Source of the DNA: Thermococci archaeon
GTDB taxonomy: Archaea; Hadarchaeota; B88-G9
Direction of reading: 5' to 3'
Length of the DNA: 18,752 nt
NCBI GenBank assembly: GCA_003660555.1
Contig: QMUK01000015.1
Coordinates: forward strand, 1 to 18,752
This document shows, piece by piece, positions 2,258 through 16,484 of this stretch. Made by a program: the position numbers and the translations under genes. The first letter of the stretch is position 1; each line of letters begins with the position of its first letter. The notes beneath the pieces are model-generated. The model searched no databases, was not told the DNA's origin, and saw only the letters and a list, made by a program, of their open reading frames with translations.

Positions 2258-3283
2258 TCACCCTTCCACCAGCTCCCGAGCCAACCTCAATATATATGTT
2301 TTCCCAACCCTCTCTCTAGTTATGACTCCCCTCTCCTCCAGTTCAGATATTATCCTACTGACCTTGGATCTCGAGAATCCAGTTCTCTGGGATATCTCCT
2401 CTTGTTTTATTTCCCCTCCTGACCTGATTATCTCCTCCACTATTCTCCTCTCGTCGGAAGTCAGAACCAACATTGGTATTCTGATCTTCGGTTTGAGTAC
2501 TTCTCTTATCCGATAATGGTGTTTGTAGACGAAGGCCCCAAGCAAGAAGGAAATCACTAAAGAGGAGGGATAAACTATCTTTCGGAAAAATTCCATTGAA
2601 AACCTTCTTTCCTCCTCCATTTCTCTTGGAGGGATCCTCTCTCCAACTTTCTTTGTTTCTACTTTTATTCCAAGACCTTTTATTGAAGAGATTACCTCTT
2701 TGGAGAATTTTCCAACTAGGATTACTTTTCTAGGCTTTATGTAGTACTTAAGAACGTTCTCTGTTGCCTCAGGTAGCTCCTCTTCCCTAGCCAAGAGAAT
2801 TGGGGATTCCAGCTCCAAGGCCCATCTCTGAGCTATCAAAGCGTATCCTATGTCGTCTCCGTTGGTTATCACTACAGTCTCCTGAGGGCCCCAGAGCTTC
2901 CTAGCTACGTCTGCTGCAGTGTGATACCTGTCCAGAGCGGAAATTCTATTGACTTCAAACCCCATTTCTCTCAACTCTTCCTCTACTCTCGGAGATATTG
3001 CCCTCTCACCACCTATTATTAGCACTTTTCCCTTCCTTCCTTCACTAGTTAGAGCTTTCGAATACTGCATTAGCTCTCTGAGCCTAGTCGGATCTATTTC
3101 CTCCGTGCTAGTTGAGAGTATCGGGACTCCCTCCCTATCTGCATATATTCTGGCCACTAGGGAGTCCCAGCTCTCGTCTTGCCTAACGATTATTAAGTCG
3201 TAGTTTCCACTATTCCCGTGAGGTGGGCTTGATACCAAGATGAGAGACAGGATCAACAGAACTTGAAGCATGGTCTGCCCCAT
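2258..3283 (-). CDS. Membrane-anchored winged-HTH regulator with cell-wall-binding-like ectodomain
   Basis: From the ATG at 3283 this is 341 residues. An N-terminal hydrophobic signal (about 5-20, LQVLLILSLILVSS) is followed by an ectodomain (about 25-230) whose segments KVLIIGGERAIS, RISALDRYHTAADVA and KVILVGKFSKEV resemble the cell-wall-binding repeat 2 fold (GG-x-x-ALS / R-x-x-GxDRYxTA). One transmembrane helix covers about 237-254. The last 66 residues (276-341) form a winged HTH: IKQEEISQRTGFSRSKVSRI is the recognition part and ERGVITRERVGKTYIL the wing. It therefore looks like an outside sensor-like domain coupled across the membrane to DNA binding, similar in plan to archaeal membrane HTH proteins. 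The in-frame ORF to 3361 overlaps the divergent gene; the ATG at 3283 or 3271 fits the signal peptide better. It leads the zinc-ribbon/aEF-1beta/fen operon. Confidence 0.75.
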   Translation of the reverse strand: MGQTMLQVLLILSLILVSSPPHGNSGNYDLIIVRQDESWDSLVARIYADREGVPILSTSTEEIDPTRLRELMQYSKALTSEGRKGKVLIIGGERAISPRVEEELREMGFEVNRISALDRYHTAADVARKLWGPQETVVITNGDDIGYALIAQRWALELESPILLAREEELPEATENVLKYYIKPRKVILVGKFSKEVISSIKGLGIKVETKKVGERIPPREMEEERRFSMEFFRKIVYPSSLVISFLLGAFVYKHHYRIREVLKPKIRIPMLVLTSDERRIVEEIIRSGGEIKQEEISQRTGFSRSKVSRIISELEERGVITRERVGKTYILRLARELVEG

Positions 3284-3299
3284 CTGATTAGGACTCAAT

Positions 3300-3318
3300 G
3301 ATAAAAAACGTTTGAGGG
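3300..3318 (+). promoter_or_regulatory. Promoter/RBS of primase-like gene in 41-bp divergent gap
   Basis: Only 41 bp separate the divergent starts at 3283 (-) and 3325 (+). The gap contains GATAAAAAACG (3300-3310), A-rich and TATA-like, and GAGGG (3314-3318), a Shine-Dalgarno six bases before the ATG at 3325. With so little space both promoters must overlap or lie in the opposite gene. Confidence 0.4.
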
Positions 3319-3324
3319 TTCGAG

Positions 3325-4458
3325 ATGCAGCTCGTGGATTTGGCCCTTGAGCACTATTCAAGAGAGGAAGTCAAGGAAATAGTTAGAGCTTTCTCTCGAG
3401 GAAGAATATGCCAAATATCTTGGGGAGTGAAGGGCAATCTGAAGAGTAGAAGAGCTTTCTGGATAGACGAGAGCATGAACATAACTATCGAAGATTACGA
3501 CAGTCTCTTCCTGAATTTTCCCTACGCTAAGGAATACTGGGTGTCTCGGGAGAGATACAGAATACCATCCAGAGGAGAGAGAGTCGAGAAAATAGATTTG
3601 TTCATGGAGATTTCCCTCTCTGGAGATTTGCCTATTTCGTCTGGGATTAAGTTTCTCTCAGCTGTCCTACTATCTGTTTATTCTGAAATGAAGAAATATT
3701 CTGGAATGAAGTGGCCCTTCTTTCCATATTTCAATGGGTTAGATGGATTCGTCTTGTATTTCCCACAGGAGAGCCTAGGGGAAATAGTTGGGGAGAAACT
3801 GGAGAGATTCAAATTCAAGTTAGAGGAAATACTGAGGAGGTCTTCAGAGGAGGTGCTACGGGAAAAGGAGGAATTCCTCAGAATGGGTATTTCCAAGGAG
3901 GACCTATCCAACCTGAGGATATCCCAGATTGACATGGCAATAGGTCCCTGCTCGATAAGAGTTGAGAGTTTCGAGAGATATGGCTATTATCTCTTTGCTG
4001 TCCCTGTGATTCCAGGTAAATTCGACCCGAAAAGGGATGCTAGGGTGGATCTTCATCCGGAATTTCCCGAAATCCCCCAAATTGGGGACATAAGCAAGTT
4101 CATAATCGAGGAGGAGGAAGAAACACCAGAATACTCTGCCAAGATAGATGAGAAGTTCTTTCCCAAGTGTCTCGAACGTGGGATAAAATCCAAAAACAGA
4201 GAGAATCTGTTCTGGATCATCAATTCTCTGAAAAACCTAGGGTGGTCTCTAGAGGAAATAGTGGATTTACTCTCAAGGGAGAATTGGGAAATCAACACAT
4301 CGGAAATAAGGGAAATCTACGAGGAGGCTGGAGAGGAAGAGCTCAGTTGCTATTGGGTTAAGAGAAACTTGGAGGTCTGCCTCAACCCTAGAGTTTGCGA
4401 GGACGCCTATCCAGATGAAACTCCAGAGAGAGTTGCCTTTAACAGGAGTAGGAGATGA
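3325..4458 (+). CDS. Archaeo-eukaryotic primase-like protein, PriS-like core plus PriL-like Cys domain, probably inactive
   Basis: A 377-residue protein. Residues 1-245 can be followed along the PriS (AEP primase) scaffold: the N-terminal helix, the P-x-x-x-Y-x-S-x-x-Y stretch (66-79), and ID...SIR...VP...FDPKRDARV (202-241). The catalytic positions differ. Where PriS has (E/D)LxFDID this protein has DLFMEIS (91-97), and where it has SGxRGFH it has NGLDGFV (137-143), losing the catalytic His. D203 remains. The PriS zinc knuckle is absent. Residues 277-360 resemble the PriL C-terminal / PriCT-type Fe-S domain: FFPKC (C282), a helical NRENLFWIINSLKNLGWSLEEI segment, then C342, C352 and C358, four cysteines in all. 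I infer an inactive or accessory primase paralogue. It is not the normal PriS, and the alignment is by eye. Seven bases separate its stop from the rhomboid TTG start. Confidence 0.55.
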   Translation: MQLVDLALEHYSREEVKEIVRAFSRGRICQISWGVKGNLKSRRAFWIDESMNITIEDYDSLFLNFPYAKEYWVSRERYRIPSRGERVEKIDLFMEISLSGDLPISSGIKFLSAVLLSVYSEMKKYSGMKWPFFPYFNGLDGFVLYFPQESLGEIVGEKLERFKFKLEEILRRSSEEVLREKEEFLRMGISKEDLSNLRISQIDMAIGPCSIRVESFERYGYYLFAVPVIPGKFDPKRDARVDLHPEFPEIPQIGDISKFIIEEEEETPEYSAKIDEKFFPKCLERGIKSKNRENLFWIINSLKNLGWSLEEIVDLLSRENWEINTSEIREIYEEAGEEELSCYWVKRNLEVCLNPRVCEDAYPDETPERVAFNRSRR

Positions 4459-7296: not shown

Positions 7297-7803
7297 TTGA
7301 AGGCTCCCCTTTGCGAGATATGTGCCAAGACTGGAGTTTTGTGTCCTAGTTGTGAGAGTAAGCTGTCGAAAGGGGAGATCACAGAACTGGACGTCAAAGT
7401 TTCAAGGATCTTGTATGAGATGGCAAAGGAACACCCAATTATAGATAAAATAACTTTTCTCAGAGCATTCCAAGGGAAGAGGATAATAGTTCTAATGGTG
7501 GAGAAGGGAGACGTTGGACCCCTAGTAGGAAGAGGCGGTAGGATAGTGAGAGAACTCTCCAGGAAACTAAAGAAAGAGAAGGTGAGAATAGTAGGTAAGA
7601 GAGAGATGAAACAGATGATCCAAGACTTAATAATTCCTGCCAGACTTCTGGGGGTGAATGTCCTGTATTTGCCGGGTGGAAAGGAGAAATACAGAGTGAG
7701 AATACCCAAAGAAGATAGAAAGAAGATACCAGCCCAAAAGGAGGAGCTAGAGAAAATCATGCGTGAGATGTTCTCATCCGAATTCGAAATACGCTTCGAG
7801 TAG
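7297..7803 (+). CDS. Zinc-ribbon/KH-domain RNA-binding protein (NusA-like)
   Basis: A 168-residue protein starting at TTG, supported by GGAGGTG five bases upstream. The N-terminus holds a zinc site (C6-x-x-C9 and C16-x-x-C19; CEICAKTGVLCPSC). A helical segment leads into a KH fold whose GxxG loop is GRGG (VGPLVGRGGRIVREL, about 71-85), followed by a second strand-rich region (KVRIVGKREM, LGVNVLYLPGG). Such archaeal proteins are usually annotated as NusA-like or KH-domain RNA-binding proteins, and I recall them near aspS in other archaea. The exact RNA target is unknown. It lies 9 bp before aspS, so the two are likely co-transcribed. Confidence 0.78.
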   Translation: MKAPLCEICAKTGVLCPSCESKLSKGEITELDVKVSRILYEMAKEHPIIDKITFLRAFQGKRIIVLMVEKGDVGPLVGRGGRIVRELSRKLKKEKVRIVGKREMKQMIQDLIIPARLLGVNVLYLPGGKEKYRVRIPKEDRKKIPAQKEELEKIMREMFSSEFEIRFE

Positions 7804-7812
7804 GGGATTCAA

Positions 7813-9102
7813 ATGAGAACTCACTACTCCTCAGAGGTCTCTCCTGAGATGGATGGAGAAGAGGTAATCGTTTGCGGATGGGTCCACGATTTGAGGAACT
7901 TAGGTGGCCTGATCTTCCTAAAAATAAGGGATAGGGAAGGAGAAATACAAGTAACAGCCCCCAAGAGGAAAGTAGATCCAGAGACTTTTGAACTTATCAG
8001 TAAATTGAGCATAGAGGACGTGGTATCAGTAAGAGGAATAGTGAAAAGAGAGGATCAAGCTCCTAGAGGGTTGGAAATAATACCTCTAGAAGTGGAAGTG
8101 CTGAATGAGGTTCTGGGAAAACTCCCTCTGGATCCTAGGGGTAGAGTGAAGGCGGAACTAGATACTAGGCTAGATGCCAGAGTAGTCGACCTGAGGAAAA
8201 GGGAAAATCAGGCAATTTTCAAGCTTCGGTCAATAGTTCTGAGAAGAATTAGGGAATTCCTTTATTCTAAGGGATTCATAGAAGTGAATACTCCGAAGAT
8301 AATAGCAGCAGCTACTGAAGGTGGAACTGCGCTTTTTCCAGTCAAATATTTCGAAAGAAATGCCTTTCTATCTCAAAGCCCCCAACTTTACAAGCAAATG
8401 TTAATGGGTACTGGACTGGACAAGGTCTTCGAAATAGCTCAGTTTTTCAGAGCTGAAGAACACGATACTAGAAGACACGTAAACGAATTCACCAGTATAG
8501 ACATAGAAATGGCTTTCTCCAAAAAGGAGGACGTAATGCTCATCTTGGAGGAGTTACTGAGAGAGGTCCTATCAGAGGTTGTGAAGACCGAGGAATTAAA
8601 AGAATTGGGGATAGATGAAAAGGACTTAGATGTAGAGTTTCCTCTTCCTAGGATTCACTACGAAGAAGCCATCGAAATGTTAAGCGAAAAGGGAATAGAA
8701 GTGGAGTGGGGAGAGGACATTCCTACAAAGGGACTCAAGGAGCTCTGGAAGCTAGTTGGTACCAAAGCCTATTTCATAGTGGATTGGCCAATGAGTGCTA
8801 AGCCCTTCTACATAATGCCCAAGGGCGAGTTGTCTGAAAGCTTCGATCTGATGTTCTACGAAATAGAGCTCGCTTCTGGAGGACAGAGAAATCACCTTTA
8901 TGATTCCCTCGTAAAAGCCATAAGAAGTAAGGGGTTGGATCCAAATGACTTCTCTTTCTACCTAGATGCCTTCAAGTGGGGAATGCCTCCTCACTCCGGA
9001 TGGGGTCTTGGCCTTGATAGGCTAATGATGGCTTTAACAGGAGCAGACAACATAAGAGAGGTAATACTATTTCCCAGAGACAGAAACAGGGTGATTCCCT
9101 AA
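7813..9102 (+). CDS. aspS: Aspartyl-tRNA synthetase, archaeal type, probably non-discriminating
   Basis: A class II synthetase that charges tRNA-Asp, and tRNA-Asn too if non-discriminating. The 429-residue length is normal for the archaeal/eukaryotic-type enzyme, without the bacterial GAD insert. An OB-fold anticodon-binding domain (1-105) precedes the catalytic core: motif 2 around FRAEEHDTRRHVNEF, the QSPQLYKQ flipping-loop region and motif 3 GLGLDRLMMALTG, ending IREVILFPRDRNR. Residue 25 is His (GWVHDL) and residue 84 is Pro (EDQAPRG). By my recollection of the Thermococcus enzyme these correspond to Trp26 and Lys85 of a discriminating AspRS, whereas His/Pro marks non-discriminating ones. 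If so the organism needs an amidotransferase such as GatCAB for Asn-tRNA; none lies in this window. Confidence 0.96.
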   Translation: MRTHYSSEVSPEMDGEEVIVCGWVHDLRNLGGLIFLKIRDREGEIQVTAPKRKVDPETFELISKLSIEDVVSVRGIVKREDQAPRGLEIIPLEVEVLNEVLGKLPLDPRGRVKAELDTRLDARVVDLRKRENQAIFKLRSIVLRRIREFLYSKGFIEVNTPKIIAAATEGGTALFPVKYFERNAFLSQSPQLYKQMLMGTGLDKVFEIAQFFRAEEHDTRRHVNEFTSIDIEMAFSKKEDVMLILEELLREVLSEVVKTEELKELGIDEKDLDVEFPLPRIHYEEAIEMLSEKGIEVEWGEDIPTKGLKELWKLVGTKAYFIVDWPMSAKPFYIMPKGELSESFDLMFYEIELASGGQRNHLYDSLVKAIRSKGLDPNDFSFYLDAFKWGMPPHSGWGLGLDRLMMALTGADNIREVILFPRDRNRVIP

Positions 9103-9112
9103 CCAATATTGG

Positions 9113-10312
9113 TCAAGAATAGGAAAGGGCATCTGTCTTCATGAATTCCCTTATGACCACTGTAGCGTAGCTCCCCTTCTCCAAGAAGAAGTGAAAAACG
9201 ACTTCTCCATTTTCTTTTCCTGAAATCCCTATCCCCGGAGAAATGGATAATCTCCTAAGCTTTCCTGGAGCTCTGAGCTCCGGCATTCTCTCTACTCTGA
9301 AGTTCCTAGGAGAAATTTCATCCTCTTCGAGTACCTCCCTCTCTATTTTCCCTATCTCTCCACTGGAGAAATCTACTGCGAAACCTGGAACTAGGACTAA
9401 TGGTCTCCCGCTTTTATCAGTTCTCTCTCCGGGAACTGGTTCTAATAGATTTTCATGGATTTCCATCCTCCTACTTATTATTTTGTTGGTCAGATAGGAC
9501 TGGTATGAGTGAATGAACATTCTGGATAATCCTCTTGGTAGAGATCTTATTGCAGAGGCGTAATCTCTTGGATTTTTCTTTAGGGACTCCAAAATCGTTC
9601 TCTCGTATCTGAGACTGGTAGGGAAGAAATCCAAAGCCTCGGAATAGTTCCAGTCCTCTTCTAATATCTCTCTAGCTTTTTTCACCTTCTCGTCTTCTGC
9701 CTCAAAACGCATGGTAAGGAAAGTCTTAACTGCTCCTTCTAAATCTCCTTTCACTATCATCTTTCCGACTACGTGAGTAACAGGCCTTATGACGCCAAAT
9801 CTCTGCAGCCCAAAGTAATTGGGGATTCCTTTTGACTCTAATTCTGATCTTATTTCTAATGCTTTGTCTAAATCTCTAGTCTCCCTGATTACTATCCTGA
9901 AGTAGTTTCCTAGGAGGTCCCCCATGAGTATCCTATTTCTCCTTCTGCCTAGATACTTGAGTCTCAATCTTCCCTTCATTAGGGTCAGATCTCTTTTAGG
10001 GAAAGGAGATCTGATGCTTATGTACTGATAAGTCAATGCTCTTTTGTCTTTAAGGCCAGCTACACCAATCAATCTCGGAGATAATGAGAATCTCTCGGAT
10101 ATCTCTTCAATTGCTCTGAAAGTCTCTATGTTCTTCTTTATCAATAAGAATACCAAGTTTTTCCCTGTGTTTTCTATTAATCCCTCTGGTCTTTTTTCCA
10201 CGACTACAAAATCTTCTGGGTACTTTCTGGTTATTCCCCCAATTCCCTCTTCATTGGAAGAATAGTAAAACATCCCGACTGAGGCTTCCGTTTCGTCCTT
10301 ACTACGCATCAT
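9113..10312 (-). CDS. truD: tRNA pseudouridine(13) synthase TruD
   Basis: A TruD-family pseudouridine synthase of 399 residues, modifying U13 of tRNA (or, as Pus7, other RNAs). The catalytic aspartate is D89 in GLKDKRA. Other family marks are the DFVVVEK N-terminal motif, NYFGLQRFG, the SYQSYLTN segment and the TRUD insertion domain between about residues 150 and 310. The ATG at 10312 overlaps the pth2 stop codon (ATGA), so translation is probably coupled; a second ATG follows directly at 10309. It converges with aspS, with only 10 bp between the stops. Confidence 0.96.
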   Translation of the reverse strand: MMRSKDETEASVGMFYYSSNEEGIGGITRKYPEDFVVVEKRPEGLIENTGKNLVFLLIKKNIETFRAIEEISERFSLSPRLIGVAGLKDKRALTYQYISIRSPFPKRDLTLMKGRLRLKYLGRRRNRILMGDLLGNYFRIVIRETRDLDKALEIRSELESKGIPNYFGLQRFGVIRPVTHVVGKMIVKGDLEGAVKTFLTMRFEAEDEKVKKAREILEEDWNYSEALDFFPTSLRYERTILESLKKNPRDYASAIRSLPRGLSRMFIHSYQSYLTNKIISRRMEIHENLLEPVPGERTDKSGRPLVLVPGFAVDFSSGEIGKIEREVLEEDEISPRNFRVERMPELRAPGKLRRLSISPGIGISGKENGEVVFHFFLEKGSYATVVIREFMKTDALSYS

Positions 10313-10692: not shown

Positions 10693-13119
10693 TTACTTCT
10701 TTCTCTGGGGAAGACCTCTCGGCCTAGTTCTGCTTGGAAGACCCCCCGGCCTTGGTCCTGTTCTGAGTGGGGGCGCCGGTGCTCTCCTAGTAACTGGAAT
10801 TCTAGGAGCTTCTTCTGGAGGTGGAGCTGGAGGTCTTTCCTCGGCTGCCTTAGGTCTTTTACCTCTACCCGCTATTAGTACCGCAACTATTAGGAGAACT
10901 ATTACTAGAACCATTGCTAGGGCTACAGGAGATATTGGCTTAGATACCTTGAGGGTTTGGCTCGCAGCAGAAGTAGCCGTCCTAGTTTCTCCCATCTCGT
11001 CAGAGTACTCTATGACTATTGAATCCCCTGGAATCGTGATTTCTCCAGATTCATTTGCTATTAGGTAGAACTTAGGCATTTTCTTTTGCCCAGGAGTTAT
11101 TCTTCCAAGAGTTACCGTTGTTGGTTGCCCTTCCTTTGGTTCCAACTCCATCGGTGGTGTGAAAGTAACCCTGACGTTGTCTGCGGTTCCGTCTCCAGTG
11201 TTCGTGATGGTAATGGATACCTCTACCTCCTCTCCGACCTTAGCTTCCGGAGGGTTCACTGAGTGAGTTACCTCTAGGGCTGGGGTGCCTACAACAGTGA
11301 CCGTAGCTCCCGAAGATGACTCTTCGTATAATCTTCCCTCTTCATCGTAGTAGGTCACCTTCGCTGGAGGTATTGTAATAGTTCCAGTCTTAGTAACCTT
11401 GAAATCGTAAGTGTGAGTAGTGCTTGCTTGAGGAAGTAGCTCAGGCACAGTCTTATCTTCAGGAGTCCCTAATGCTCCAACAGGTAGACTTCCAGATATC
11501 ACTAAGTTCTTCGCAGGAGCGTCCCCTGAATTCTGTACGTTAACGGTGACTCTAACTGTCTCGCCCTTCTTAACCTTCGTTGGTTCCACACTCATGCTTA
11601 CGGTGAGCCTAGGCTTGGTCTCCTTTACCTCTATGGTTATAGGTTGGGTTGGGTCTGAGGTGTATTTGTTCCCAGCTTCGTCCTCGTAATCTGCCTGAAC
11701 AGATGGCAGAGTTATCGTTCCAGGTTGATTTGCCTTCAGCACATAGCTTATTGTCTTCTGTTGATTTGAAGATATCGTAGTAGGTCCCAAACTCACACTT
11801 CCAGAAATTAGGGAAAGACCAGATGGCACAGTATCTCTGACTTTGACGTTCTTAGCTGTTCCATCTCCTATGTTCCTAACTGTTACGGTGACTCTAATTT
11901 GTTCTCCTTTCTTCACCTGGGTCTTGTCTACTTCCTTGGTGACTTGGATCTCAGGGAGTTTCTCTGGTTCTGCTGCTCCCTTCTCAGCTTTGAAACCCAT
12001 GGGACCTTCTATCATTAGGGTAGCTTGATTAGTAGTTACGCTCTGCAAAGAGACTCTGACCTTGTTGTCGTAAGAGGTCAAGTACTGGACTCCACCGAAT
12101 CCATAGGATGGATAGAGTTGCATTGACTTCGTACTACTGAATGGAGATATTTGAGTTATCCTGACCCAAGCACTTCCTACTGCTAGGCTCATTAGTTCTA
12201 CCTCGTACTTCTCTCCCATTGTCCCAGTCACTGTGACCTTCTCTCCCTGTTTCAGGGTGAATGTCCCCAAGGTCACTAGGTATCCGTAGCCTCCCCCCAT
12301 TCCTCCGAAACTCTTCTTCACATCTCCCTCTAGGTAAGGAGCTATGCTTACCCTCACTCTGGCCCACTTCTGGCCGTTATCTTCCCCTATTCCTCCGGGA
12401 AAGTCCATGGCTATTCTAAGGGCATCTCTAGTATCCCCAACAGAGATCTGGGTCTCTGGTCTTGCAGAGCTCAACTCCACAGTCCCAGAGTCCTCCTCAG
12501 AATTCGTTACTTCCCATCTTAAGGTCACTCTGTTGTTAGCTAAATCCACACTCACTACTTTTATGGTGACTTCCTCTATGCTCCCTTGATCCAATTCGTC
12601 TCTTAAGGATTGGCCTTCGGGTATCTTCTCGTCACTCAAATCCCTCAGGGTGACTCTTTCAATGTATAAGTTTATGTTAGCAGTTTGTTGGAACGTGTTT
12701 ATGGACTTGACCTCTATCCTGAAGTTTATGTCCTCATCCCTGTCTTCCAAGCTCTCGTCATCGTCTTCTCTAATCATCACTCGATCTAGCTCTCCTCCAT
12801 AATATCCTGGATATGTAGTTCCAGCAGAACCATAACCCGCGCCGTATCCAGTACCAGTATAACTTCCGTATCCTCCATATCCTCCGTAATAATACCCTCC
12901 ATAATATGTCCTCAGGACAAAGGTTGCTTCTCTGAATTGTATGCTCTCCAAGTTTATCTCATAATCATTTCCCACTACTAGGGATTCGCCCTGTCTAAGG
13001 GTACCATCCCATATCTTGACGTATCTATCTGGGACTGCAGCTTTACCGCCAGTAGAAACTAGAAGGGTACTGCCAATTGCTATGAACAACAGGAGGATTG
13101 TCATACCCCTCCTAATCAT
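10693..13119 (-). CDS. Large single-pass surface protein with three CARDB/DUF11-like domains
   Basis: An 808-residue envelope protein. Order: signal peptide (1-28), beta-rich N-terminal region interrupted by a Gly/Tyr-rich stretch (71-109), acidic DDDESLEDRDED patch, more beta-rich sequence with a repeated QGE-x-x-x-V-x-x-x-YE(I/V)-x-L motif near 43-57 and about 300, then three tandem Ig-like CARDB/DUF11-type domains (about 395-500, 505-610, 615-725), each opening with a K(V)KKGExxRVTVxVxNxGD pattern. A transmembrane helix follows (729-750), then a 58-residue cytoplasmic-side tail rich in Pro and Arg. Only one N-x-S/T sequon (NES) was found by eye. It could be an S-layer-associated or adhesion protein; the exact role is unknown. 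GGGGG lies 7 bases before the ATG, and a TATA box and leader hairpin precede it. Confidence 0.88.
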   Translation of the reverse strand: MIRRGMTILLLFIAIGSTLLVSTGGKAAVPDRYVKIWDGTLRQGESLVVGNDYEINLESIQFREATFVLRTYYGGYYYGGYGGYGSYTGTGYGAGYGSAGTTYPGYYGGELDRVMIREDDDESLEDRDEDINFRIEVKSINTFQQTANINLYIERVTLRDLSDEKIPEGQSLRDELDQGSIEEVTIKVVSVDLANNRVTLRWEVTNSEEDSGTVELSSARPETQISVGDTRDALRIAMDFPGGIGEDNGQKWARVRVSIAPYLEGDVKKSFGGMGGGYGYLVTLGTFTLKQGEKVTVTGTMGEKYEVELMSLAVGSAWVRITQISPFSSTKSMQLYPSYGFGGVQYLTSYDNKVRVSLQSVTTNQATLMIEGPMGFKAEKGAAEPEKLPEIQVTKEVDKTQVKKGEQIRVTVTVRNIGDGTAKNVKVRDTVPSGLSLISGSVSLGPTTISSNQQKTISYVLKANQPGTITLPSVQADYEDEAGNKYTSDPTQPITIEVKETKPRLTVSMSVEPTKVKKGETVRVTVNVQNSGDAPAKNLVISGSLPVGALGTPEDKTVPELLPQASTTHTYDFKVTKTGTITIPPAKVTYYDEEGRLYEESSSGATVTVVGTPALEVTHSVNPPEAKVGEEVEVSITITNTGDGTADNVRVTFTPPMELEPKEGQPTTVTLGRITPGQKKMPKFYLIANESGEITIPGDSIVIEYSDEMGETRTATSAASQTLKVSKPISPVALAMVLVIVLLIVAVLIAGRGKRPKAAEERPPAPPPEEAPRIPVTRRAPAPPLRTGPRPGGLPSRTRPRGLPQRKK

Positions 13120-13261: not shown

Positions 13262-13292
13262 GAAATAAGATGTGATAGGGCGTCTGCTAGTA

Positions 13293-13304
13293 GGGGGTTT
13301 CCCC
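13293..13304 (+). promoter_or_regulatory. Ribosome site folded into a small GC hairpin
   Basis: GGGGGTTTCCCC lies two bases before the ATG at 13307. The G-run is the only Shine-Dalgarno candidate, yet it can pair with the C-run (4 bp, 3-base loop), which would hide it. This may lower or tune translation. Confidence 0.4.
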
Positions 13305-13306
13305 AT

Positions 13307-14761
13307 ATGGAGCTACTTCGGAAATCAATTCATTCTCTTGGACTAACCTTTCCAATTCTAGGCGCAATTTTCGGAAGAGAGTTCTTACTTATGTTTTTGG
13401 TTATCTCAATAGTCTCATTTCTTGTTCTGGAAGGACTCAGAATCTCGGGAATCCAAATCCCAATATATTCGGAGATTATATGGATGTCTCTCAGAGATAA
13501 GGAGGATTCTAAGAAACCATTTCTTCCTACTTTTTACTTCTTGTTGTCTTCTTTAGTGCTGCTTCTCATATTCTGGGAAAAGATAGAAATCTTCTATTCC
13601 TCTGTCTCTATTCTGTCAGTCGGAGATAGTGTTTCATCAATTGTAGGAGCGTCTTTGGGTAGAAGAAAGCTACCTTACCCCATGGATAGTAATAAAACTA
13701 TAGAAGGAAGCGCATCGTTTCTCCTATCCTCTTTCTTAGTGTCCAATGTTTTCCTAGATTGGAAAGGCGCTCTAGCTTCCTCATTGATTGCTTGCTTCTT
13801 CGAAGCCATTGGCAGAGTAAATGATAACTTGAGTGTACCTTTCTCTTCTGCTCTAGGGCCCTACTTATCCAAAGGTAATCTGATGGCAACGCTAGTTTTT
13901 TCCTCATTTTTAATTACCTTCCTATTATCTTCTCTTTTTGCTAAGAAATTTCCGGAATTGGGCATATTCGGTGTAGATCTACACAAATTGGATAAGCCAA
14001 AAGTAGCGGAAATGGGTGGAATTTCCATCTTCCTCGGTCTAGTTCCTGTTCTCTTGATTTTGGGGAGAGATGAGCTATTTTTGGTAGCTCTGATATCTGT
14101 GACAATAGGAGTGATAGACGATCTAGTCCAGTTGAGACAGAGAGACAAGGTCATGCTCTGCGCCCTAGCTTCAATCCCCCTATTTCCAAGGGGTGAAGTA
14201 TTGGGATTCCAAGGACTTTTGGCCTACTTTCTCATGGCTATGGGTATTACTGGCGGAAGTAACGCTTTTAATTTATTAGCTGGATTTAACGGACTTGAAG
14301 CAGGGCTATCTCTGATCCTGTTCTCTTTCTCATGTATGTTTCTCAAAGGAGACTTGCTCGTAATATCTGCATGTATATCACTCTCATTGATTGCTTTCTT
14401 GTACTTCAATTGGTATCCTGCCAGAATATTTCCGGGAGATTCTGGGACTTTACTGCTTGGGGCCATGTACTCCTCCTTGGCAATACTAGGAAATTCGGAG
14501 CTTGTAATGGCATTATTCCTAATTCCACATATGGCAGACTTGCTACTCAAATCTAAATCGAGATTTGGGACTAAAAAAATTGGACCTACTGTTATATCTG
14601 AAAACGGATTTTTAATTCCTCCAAAGTATAGTTCACTCATCTCGGAGATCCTGAAGAGGAGAAGGTTTAAGGAGGTTGAGCTGGTGCTCCTACTCTTGGG
14701 AGTGCAACTCGCGACCTGTGGGGTGATCAGTTGTCTGTTCCTAGCAGGGCCTTGGTCCTGA
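13307..14761 (+). CDS. Fusion: dolichol kinase-like domain plus polyprenyl-P HexNAc-1-P transferase domain
   Basis: A 484-residue polytopic membrane protein with two enzyme domains in one frame. Residues 1-190 match the CTP-dependent dolichol/polyprenol kinase family (Sec59-like): RKSIH (5-9), SVGDSVSSIVGASLGRRKL (104-122), NKTIEGS (129-135) and NDNLSVP (172-178). Residues 195-484 match the MraY/Alg7 GT4-type transferases: VDLHKLDKPKVAEMGG (223-238), IGVIDDL with metal-site D271-D272, NAFNLLAGFNGLEAG (319-333), FPGDSG (375-380) and KKIGPT (423-428). The first domain would make dolichyl phosphate and the second would transfer a sugar-1-phosphate (probably GlcNAc-1-P) to it, starting a lipid-linked glycan. 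The reactions are inferred from families. The TATA box is at 13250; the next gene starts inside its 3' end. Confidence 0.88.
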   Translation: MELLRKSIHSLGLTFPILGAIFGREFLLMFLVISIVSFLVLEGLRISGIQIPIYSEIIWMSLRDKEDSKKPFLPTFYFLLSSLVLLLIFWEKIEIFYSSVSILSVGDSVSSIVGASLGRRKLPYPMDSNKTIEGSASFLLSSFLVSNVFLDWKGALASSLIACFFEAIGRVNDNLSVPFSSALGPYLSKGNLMATLVFSSFLITFLLSSLFAKKFPELGIFGVDLHKLDKPKVAEMGGISIFLGLVPVLLILGRDELFLVALISVTIGVIDDLVQLRQRDKVMLCALASIPLFPRGEVLGFQGLLAYFLMAMGITGGSNAFNLLAGFNGLEAGLSLILFSFSCMFLKGDLLVISACISLSLIAFLYFNWYPARIFPGDSGTLLLGAMYSSLAILGNSELVMALFLIPHMADLLLKSKSRFGTKKIGPTVISENGFLIPPKYSSLISEILKRRRFKEVELVLLLLGVQLATCGVISCLFLAGPWS

Positions 14762-15156
14762 GAGTCAAGCCAGGAGAAGAGCTGATATCTAGAATAAGGG
14801 AAGAGTGTGTGAGGGCTGGGATTAAGGCTGGAATAATCACCGGAATAGGTAGCCTTAAGACGGCAAAGATAGGATTCCTAGAGAGAACTCCCCCTCCAGA
14901 GTTCAGAGAGATGGAAATAGATGGACCATTGGAACTCATGTTCGTGGGGAACGTTACCGAGGAGAGAGAAGGGGTAAGGATACACTTGCACGCTACCGTC
15001 TCTAAGGGTGAGAAGACGTTCTTCGGACATCTCTTCAACGGTGAGATATTCACTACTGCTGAGGTCTTCGTCATTTCCTTAGAGGGCGTTAGGATCACTA
15101 GGAAACTCGACGAATCCACTGGGCTGGAGGAGATAGATATTGATGAGAGGAAATGA
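14731..15156 (+). CDS. PPC/DUF296-domain protein
   Basis: A 141-residue protein of the PPC (plants and prokaryotes conserved, DUF296) fold, which forms trimers; plant members are linked to AT-hook DNA-binding proteins, and prokaryotic function is unsettled. Family marks are AGIITGIGSLKTAKIGF near the start, a histidine cluster IHLHATVSKGEKTFFGHL (likely a metal or ligand site) and AEVFVISLEGV near the end. No AT-hook is present. It starts at TTG 14731 with GGGTGATC just upstream, matching the extended anti-Shine-Dalgarno complement, and overlaps the upstream fusion gene by 31 bp, so translation is probably coupled. Confidence 0.9.
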   Translation: MSVPSRALVLRVKPGEELISRIREECVRAGIKAGIITGIGSLKTAKIGFLERTPPPEFREMEIDGPLELMFVGNVTEEREGVRIHLHATVSKGEKTFFGHLFNGEIFTTAEVFVISLEGVRITRKLDESTGLEEIDIDERK

Positions 15157-16111
15157 ATACCCGGTGACTAAGCTCATAATAGTAATAAACACATTAGTCT
15201 TCCTAGTGACTTTAATTTCTCCGGACTTGGTGGTAAAAGGGGCTATTTCTAGAGATAATCTAAGTAATATATCTGAGAATCCTCTGTACATATTAACACC
15301 AATAACTAGCCTCTTCATACATGGGGGCCCCATTCACCTCATACTGAGTTTAATCACTCTGTACTTCTTGGGAAGATATTTAGAATCTAAAATTGGATCA
15401 TTACAGTTCACACTCACATATTTAATCTCTGGTATGGTTGGATCACTCTTCTTTCTCGTATTAAACGAGGGTTACGCCGTAGGATCCTCTGGAGCCATAT
15501 TGGGAGTAATATCAGCTCTAACTGTTTTGGAGCCAGACATCGTAGTTATATTCCTTGTTTTCCCTATGAGACTGGTTGTATTTACCGTTCTATTTACAGT
15601 AGCAACTGTAATATTTGCCATCTTCGGAATAATGCCTGAAATAGCACATACTGCTCACTTGGGAGGTATACTATCTGGGATCTTGATAGGACTCTACCTA
15701 AAAGGTGGTAAAGTAGAATTTGAGATCGGAATAGACTTATTTGAAGAGAAAGAAGGAGAAGAAGACGTAATAGATATATATCCAGACGAGGTGGAGGATT
15801 GGAGACCAAAGAGTGCTAGCGGGCCTAGGAGGAGTGTGAAATTGGACTTCACCAGAGGCAGGCTCGATTTGACTGAAGACGAAGTAGTAATTGAGTTCGA
15901 GCTCAGAGGAGCTAGAAGAGAGGACGTAGAGGTAAGAAGAGTTGGAAGGAGTTTGGAAATAGTAATTCCAAAGGAGAAGTATTTCCAAGCTTGGGAACTC
16001 CCAGAAGATGCCATGCCTGATTTAATGGAGTTCGAGGAAATTGGAGACTCACTCCTAATAATAAGAATACCCAGAGGGGGTGTTAGTAATGGTGGAATGC
16101 GTTTTCTGTAA
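15143..16111 (+). CDS. Rhomboid protease fused to a C-terminal Hsp20-like domain
   Basis: From the ATG at 15143 this is 322 residues. Residues 1-188 are a rhomboid membrane domain: HGGPIHL (H60, H65), GSSGAILG with catalytic Ser116 and AHLGG with catalytic His172. The oxyanion asparagine usually four residues after the second His of the HGG motif is Ser here. An acidic linker (about 195-222) leads to residues 230-310, where EVVIEFELRGARREDVEVRRVGR and SLEIVIP, then SLLIIRIPR, follow the alpha-crystallin/Hsp20 (or CS-like) beta-sandwich pattern. The domain would sit in the cytoplasm if topology is typical. GGAGGAG (15127-15133) precedes the start, and the gene overlaps its upstream neighbour by 14 bp and the HIT gene by 23 bp. 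Confidence 0.85.
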   Translation: MRGNEYPVTKLIIVINTLVFLVTLISPDLVVKGAISRDNLSNISENPLYILTPITSLFIHGGPIHLILSLITLYFLGRYLESKIGSLQFTLTYLISGMVGSLFFLVLNEGYAVGSSGAILGVISALTVLEPDIVVIFLVFPMRLVVFTVLFTVATVIFAIFGIMPEIAHTAHLGGILSGILIGLYLKGGKVEFEIGIDLFEEKEGEEDVIDIYPDEVEDWRPKSASGPRRSVKLDFTRGRLDLTEDEVVIEFELRGARREDVEVRRVGRSLEIVIPKEKYFQAWELPEDAMPDLMEFEEIGDSLLIIRIPRGGVSNGGMRFL

Positions 16112-16484
16112 AATAATTTCTGGAGAGATAGACTCCTACAAAGTTCACGAGGGGGACCTAGTAGTAGCTTTCTTAGACATAAATCCGGCAAACGACGGCC
16201 ACGTGCTAGTGGTTCCAAGGAAACACTTCGAGAGCTTGGAGGAAATGGATGAGGATAGCCTTAGATCAATGTTCCTAGTGGTCAGAGAGATAGTGTCCAA
16301 GATAAAGAGGGAATTAAATCCAGATGGGATAAACATACTCTTGAACCAAGGAGAGGCCGCTGGACAAATAGTCAAACATCTGCACGTACACGTAATACCC
16401 AGATGGGAAGGGGATTCAGTTAAAATAAGTTGGACCCCGAGAGGAAAGGAGAAACTTGAGGAAATATGGAGGAAAATTAAGTAA
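16089..16484 (+). CDS. HIT-family nucleotide hydrolase
   Basis: A 131-residue histidine-triad protein of the Hint type, likely hydrolysing nucleoside phosphoramidates or dinucleoside polyphosphates. The triad is HLHVHVIPR near residues 97-105; the GHVLVVPRKHF core and NILLNQGEAAGQIVKHLH segment are typical. The CVFCKI start (C4, C7) gives the zinc-binding cysteine pair of the Hint branch. I choose the ATG at 16089, six bases after GAGGGGGTG, over the GTG at 16080. It overlaps the rhomboid-Hsp20 gene by 23 bp, and its stop codon shares a base with the Lhr start (TAATG). Confidence 0.94.
   Translation: MVECVFCKIISGEIDSYKVHEGDLVVAFLDINPANDGHVLVVPRKHFESLEEMDEDSLRSMFLVVREIVSKIKRELNPDGINILLNQGEAAGQIVKHLHVHVIPRWEGDSVKISWTPRGKEKLEEIWRKIK

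Follow-up and report, generated by a model that had tools for sequence, protein, structure and literature searches.

Enzymes of two known families are brought together in the protein analyzed here. The free-standing archaeal homologues of its N-terminal half are taken by us to represent the dolichol kinase group arCOG01881. Phytol, farnesol, and geranylgeraniol serve as substrates for related kinases (PMC10849223), and a charged clamp formed by Arg29, Lys30, and His33 has been proposed for the Plasmodium prenol kinase (PMC10849223). Kinase-like domains of this type are known to take part in gene fusions: in Methanosarcina barkeri, Mbar_A3310 carries a dolichol-kinase-like domain fused to arCOG02245, and the latter is found in the neighborhood of uppS (Makarova and colleagues, PMC5898192). 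Among the GT4 transferases, AglH of Sulfolobus is an archaeal member that has been tested by experiment (PMC5222938). We found no description of a fusion between a kinase of the first family and a transferase of the second in the literature searched, which for the most part did not reach into subscription journals. The fusion reported below joins two known enzyme families, is probably real, and is apparently undescribed.

The window, 18,752 nucleotides long, is contig 15 of an archaeal MAG (1.3 Mb, 91% complete, 150 contigs). Its positions 13307..14761 on the plus strand, delimited by the ORF listing, Pfam, and the homologues of each half, hold a gene that starts with ATG and encodes 484 amino acids without an internal stop, the frame from stop to stop covering 500 amino acids. 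The original prediction of one uninterrupted frame was thus confirmed, together with the motifs quoted for the kinase (GDSVSSIVG at residues 106–114, NKTIEGS at 129–135, and NDNLSVP at 172–178) and the transferase (DLHK at 224–227, AEMGG at 234–238, DD at 271–272, NGLEAG at 328–333, and FPGDSG at 375–380). Statistically, the family matches lie far outside what chance would give. The ribosome-binding region (tagtagggggtttccccat-ATG, 13285..13306, plus strand) contains a strong Shine–Dalgarno-like site with an anti-SD duplex of −10.5. On the other side and back to back with the gene, the minus strand encodes an 808-residue surface protein (10693..13119; ORF listing and Pfam) that contains DUF11/CARDB repeats and has a hydrophobic segment at its C-terminus. 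Downstream, the plus strand continues with a PCC (DUF296) domain protein whose start overlaps the end of the fused gene (14731..15156; anti-SD duplex −10.9), an intramembrane protease of the rhomboid family, extended at its C-terminus (15140..16111), and a HIT-family hydrolase (16080..16484), all with overlapping ends. This context is as originally described, and the overlapping genes together with the divergent surface gene suggest that the fused gene probably heads an operon, with the PCC-domain gene as the next member.

Some further features of the window stand apart from the fused gene. The rhomboid protein at 15140–16111 (plus strand) has a C-terminal extension of ~120 amino acids that looks Hsp20-like by eye, with a Pfam E value of only 0.18. 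A 377-residue ORF at 3325–4458 (plus strand) overlaps the start of a rhomboid gene downstream of it and matches no Pfam family, its one match being at chance level (E 0.15). At 2258–3361 (minus strand), one protein unites CWB2 repeats (PF04122) with a hydrophobic segment and, C-terminally, a winged-helix DNA-binding domain (DUF7343/MarR-like); it may be a transcription regulator that is bound to the membrane and senses the outside. A second protein with a CWB2-type look by eye is encoded at L113:6824–8323 (minus strand). A KptA gene is also present in the window; like AglB on contig 10 and the named relatives described below, it fits an archaeal origin.

The N-terminal half (residues 1–189; 13307..13873, plus strand) was assigned to the dolichol-kinase family by a family profile, its invariant residues, and an AF2 model. 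It matched the archaeal dolichol-kinase (SEC59/COG0170-like) family over the full length: BLAST against free-standing archaeal ORFs of ~200 amino acids gave values from 1e-23 to 1e-13 over ~185 residues, and an archaeal family profile, built from ten sequences of which the query itself was one, aligned up to model position 190 of 192. All 12 columns invariant among 26 sequences of the family are kept in the fused protein (R5, H9, R63, D107, G114, G118, K130, G134, E166, D173, N174, and P178), and the conserved set attributed to the CTP and lipid site is complete (R-x-x-x-H, GDS, K-S/T-x-EG, E, and DN-x-x-x-P). The domain carries R5/K6/H9, R63, the GDSVSSIVG segment with D107, NKTIEGS, E166, and NDNLSVP; of these, R5/K6/H9 resembles the R-K-H clamp proposed for the Plasmodium kinase and, by analogy, may be equivalent to it in position. 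The two halves were modeled singly, each with its own alignment, and with 26 alignment rows residues 1–190 formed a block with pLDDT mostly between 83 and 98, dipping at residues 51–70.

Other comparisons of this half were less specific. The Pfam superfamily model PF01148 matched it weakly (E 0.015, 15.6 bits, below the cut-off of 24), and since the free-standing archaeal homologues likewise miss this cut-off, we regard PF01148 as a poor test of the kinase family. For the kinase model, Foldseek gave nothing at E ≤ 0.001, perhaps due to the poor quality of the other half of that model. The best structural match was the archaeal membrane-lipid enzyme of entry 5guf, with a middling Z score of 7.3 and an rmsd of 2.6 over 96 residues; as unrelated helical chains reached 7.2 and 6.7, this match is weak when taken alone. 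The family profile also reaches the phosphatidate cytidylyltransferase 4q2e (E 2.7e-4). The hits to PF01148, 5guf, and 4q2e, all from the same superfamily, would fit an N-terminal half that makes a CDP-lipid in the manner of CdsA or CDP-archaeol synthase and is no kinase at all. We consider this very unlikely: the domain has the short architecture of the kinases (~190 amino acids) and shares R-K/Q-x-x-H, K-S/T-x-EG, and DNxxxP with the free-standing archaeal homologues, and a CDP-lipid would not be a substrate for the adjoining GT4 domain. Of the full kinase domain originally claimed, the full-length family match and the intact invariant residues stand, while the Pfam score falls below its cut-off. 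The name dolichol kinase is used here for the family to which the sequence points and does not assign a substrate.

The C-terminal half (residues 192–484; 13880..14758, plus strand) is a GT4 domain of the Alg7/DPAGT1/MraY type, as was evident from Pfam, the match to DPAGT1, the AF2 model, and Foldseek. PF00953 matched residues 258–395 with an E value of 4.6e-27 (95.4 bits against a cut-off of 27), and homology to GT4 proteins extended from residue ~191 nearly to the end of the protein. The catalytic motifs DxxK, DD, NxxN, NGLEAG, and FPGD are all present, and the residues conserved in the family are kept (D224, K227, D271, D272, N319, N322, N328, E331, P371, G377, and D378). With 33 alignment rows, the block of residues 190–484 was modeled with pLDDT mostly above 90, and all 38 Foldseek matches with E ≤ 0.001 were of DPAGT1 or MraY type, DPAGT1 being the best (E 2e-14 to 2e-12) and MraY the next. 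The claim of a full Alg7/MraY-type domain is well founded on this evidence. By sequence, too, human DPAGT1 was the closest relative of solved structure (E 4.9e-11), and its higher score than that of MraY hints at Alg7-type specificity, that is, for UDP-GlcNAc and dolichyl phosphate, although such a ranking is only suggestive. The closest matches of the domain were GT4s of families f9 and f136 (37–44%), which appear to be Thermococcales-like (f9 judging by genome features), and not the second GT4 of its own genome. In the tree, the fused GT4 and that second GT4, from contig 10, formed separate long branches, the fused one joining the f9 sequences with moderate support (93/86).

Whether the two halves are one protein or two depends on their seam. 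Homology to the kinases stops at residue ~189 and homology to the GT4s starts at ~191–198 in the identical frame; the homologies thus abut without a linker at 13874..13879 (plus strand; the limits of both homologies), and any hidden error is confined to about ten to thirty bases. We considered that the assembly, through a wrong or missing base near 13857–13883, joins what are in reality two adjacent, translationally coupled genes, first the kinase and then the GT4. The sequence comes from a single MAG of many contigs, the homologues are all split among the matches listed, and several codons at the seam are one substitution away from a stop (e.g., AAA → TAA). Furthermore, an in-frame ATG (Met193, 13883..13885, plus strand), which may be the relic of a separate GT4 start or serve as an alternative one, is found exactly where the GT4 homology begins, and the seam includes the string CTGATGG, in which a TGA and an ATG overlap in another frame, a warning sign as such joins are typical of coupled genes. 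However, Met193 lacks a clear Shine–Dalgarno site: its anti-SD duplex is −4.0, against −10.5 for the fused gene and −10.9 for the gene that follows it, and 31% of the internal ATGs in the main genes of the window are as good in anti-SD energy. An internal start at Met193 was rejected for having a ribosome site no better than the background, and an artefact by frameshift or stop loss gained no support from the homology limits, the other frames, or the strength of the ribosome site. As the seam has no long homopolymer either, and the homologies share their frame to within a few residues, we judge the coupled-genes explanation to be distinctly unlikely; the abutting homologies in one frame and the absence of a recognizable ribosome site at Met193 argue against a sequencing artefact. 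Among the findings named in advance as refuting the prediction were a hidden stop near codon 190 and the failure of either half to match its family; there is no sign of such a stop, and neither half fails. On balance, we think it rather likely that the gene is a genuine fusion of a CTP-dependent polyisoprenol (dolichol) kinase and a compact Alg7-type HexNAc-1-P transferase starting a lipid-linked glycan.

The kinase family is widespread, being present in 271 of 394 archaeal genomes, mostly in frames of ~190–220 amino acids; about 15 of the frames listed have 300–400 amino acids, and the fused protein alone reaches 500. Among the matches listed, none in ~480 other archaeal genomes was a second kinase–GT4 fusion, and none spanned both halves, whether in the 394 archaeal genomes or among the 115 searched in the phylum of G387. 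The fusion was also not found in 27 genomes of its own phylum; the scan of the phylum of G049 comprised G049 alone. The scan across genome species produced GT4 matches only, and the named relatives were archaeal but for one. In L049 and L058, long frames containing a GT4 were examined as candidate second fusions and rejected, Pfam finding the GT4 domain alone. A PHROGs search gave no match. The claim of novelty is supported insofar as the fusion occurs in one genome only and is missing from the matches listed for the ~480 others; that the listed homologues are otherwise always split weakens the case but does not refute it. As a separate observation, the matches listed for the same-phylum genomes G001–G027 included none to the GT4 half and only a few to the kinase, which suggests that the sister families have lost the carrier pathway or that it has strongly diverged.

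The host genome contains a cis-prenyltransferase gene and AglB (STT3), which together indicate a polyisoprenyl-phosphate glycan pathway. PAP2 was not found in the genome (91% complete), and no BacA match exceeded the cut-off. The original idea of an enzyme that makes and primes its own carrier was too strong, as the chain would come from the separate cis-prenyltransferase and the kinase would only phosphorylate or rephosphorylate free polyisoprenol. In the proposed mechanism, the N-terminal domain, as a SEC59/COG0170-type polyisoprenol (dolichol) kinase, would transfer phosphate from CTP to free polyisoprenol at the cytoplasmic face of the membrane, giving polyisoprenyl phosphate. The adjoining GT4 domain, a compact Alg7-type UDP-HexNAc:polyisoprenyl-phosphate HexNAc-1-phosphate transferase, would then convert this and UDP-HexNAc to polyisoprenyl-PP-HexNAc and UMP, and the lipid-linked glycan so begun would probably be destined for the cell surface. 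Family membership points to CTP as the phosphate donor, and we infer dolichol and UDP-GlcNAc as the substrates. From the alternating helices in the separate models of the halves and the positive loops, both active sites are predicted to be cytoplasmic: after the kinase site, the last helix of the kinase would run outward and the first helix of the GT4 inward to the DLHK loop. A local hand-over, or channeling, of the lipid between the sites is plausible and the least supported step of the proposal. We therefore put forward only tentatively, as a possibility short of even, that one membrane protein couples carrier phosphorylation and the first glycosylation by passing the lipid directly from site to site, and acts as a dedicated recycling-and-priming enzyme for an archaeal surface glycan.

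A fusion may also be real without such coupling. The kinase could act on another lipid alcohol, such as geranylgeraniol or a short polyprenol, or mainly supply the whole cell with lipid phosphate, and the GT4 could gain stability or co-localization without channeling. The phytol, farnesol, and geranylgeraniol kinases (PMC10849223) are precedents for the former. For the latter, the profile search detected no kinase-family match in the host genome other than the fusion, and any further enzymes that use the carrier may rely on this one kinase; given that a second GT4 exists, the kinase may work for more than the transferase it is joined to. That second, unfused GT4 (L072, G000 contig 10; 6395–7363, plus strand) is convergent with and overlaps AglB (7328–9241, minus strand) and is perhaps the initiator of N-glycosylation in the host, in which case the fused enzyme may not be. 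Nevertheless, the partner GT4 domain uses polyisoprenyl phosphate, and the gene associations described below point to a long carrier; we regard a different lipid or a mainly cell-wide role as unlikely, though deserving more weight than either coupled genes or a cytidylyltransferase.

The kinase domain is found in other combinations in our data. In seven genomes of five families, a PAP2 lipid phosphatase and a C-terminal dolichol-kinase-family domain share one frame (L075/L090 in G057, L078/L084 in G035, L079/L088 in G040, L098 in G174, L101/L116 in G062, L102 in G082, and L117 in G311), the phosphatase and the kinase perhaps acting on one and the same lipid. Within 6 kb of G033 (L111 3122–8988), a cis-prenyltransferase and a GT4 are encoded together with a kinase-family protein that has an additional region at its N-terminus. 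Together with the arCOG02245 fusion, these cases suggest that the kinase domain is a module of polyisoprenyl-phosphate metabolism. A fusion is strong evidence of a functional link, and the kinase–GT4 and recurrent PAP2–kinase fusions connect a little-studied family of archaeal kinases with the long glycan carrier and not with other prenols. A compact fused protein lends itself to the study of two questions: by what route dolichol is recycled and phosphorylated in archaea, and whether channeling of lipid carriers occurs.

In comparison with known systems, the N-terminal half resembles the archaeal dolichol kinase family (SEC59/COG0170, arCOG01881) in its full length, invariant residues, and order of motifs, but the members of that family are free-standing proteins of ~200 amino acids, whereas here the domain forms the N-terminal half of 484 amino acids, with ~30% identity to the nearest homologues. 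The C-terminal half shares the DxxK, DD, NxxN/NGLEAG, and FPGD motifs and the fold with Alg7/AglH/DPAGT1 and MraY/WecA, and differs from them in having a kinase domain in front. As in the PAP2–kinase fusions, the kinase domain is joined to an enzyme of lipid phosphates; in those, the kinase is C-terminal and the partner is a phosphatase. The SEC59–arCOG02245 fusion of Mbar_A3310 likewise has an N-terminal kinase-like domain in a membrane protein, the partner there being another cytidylyltransferase-type domain.
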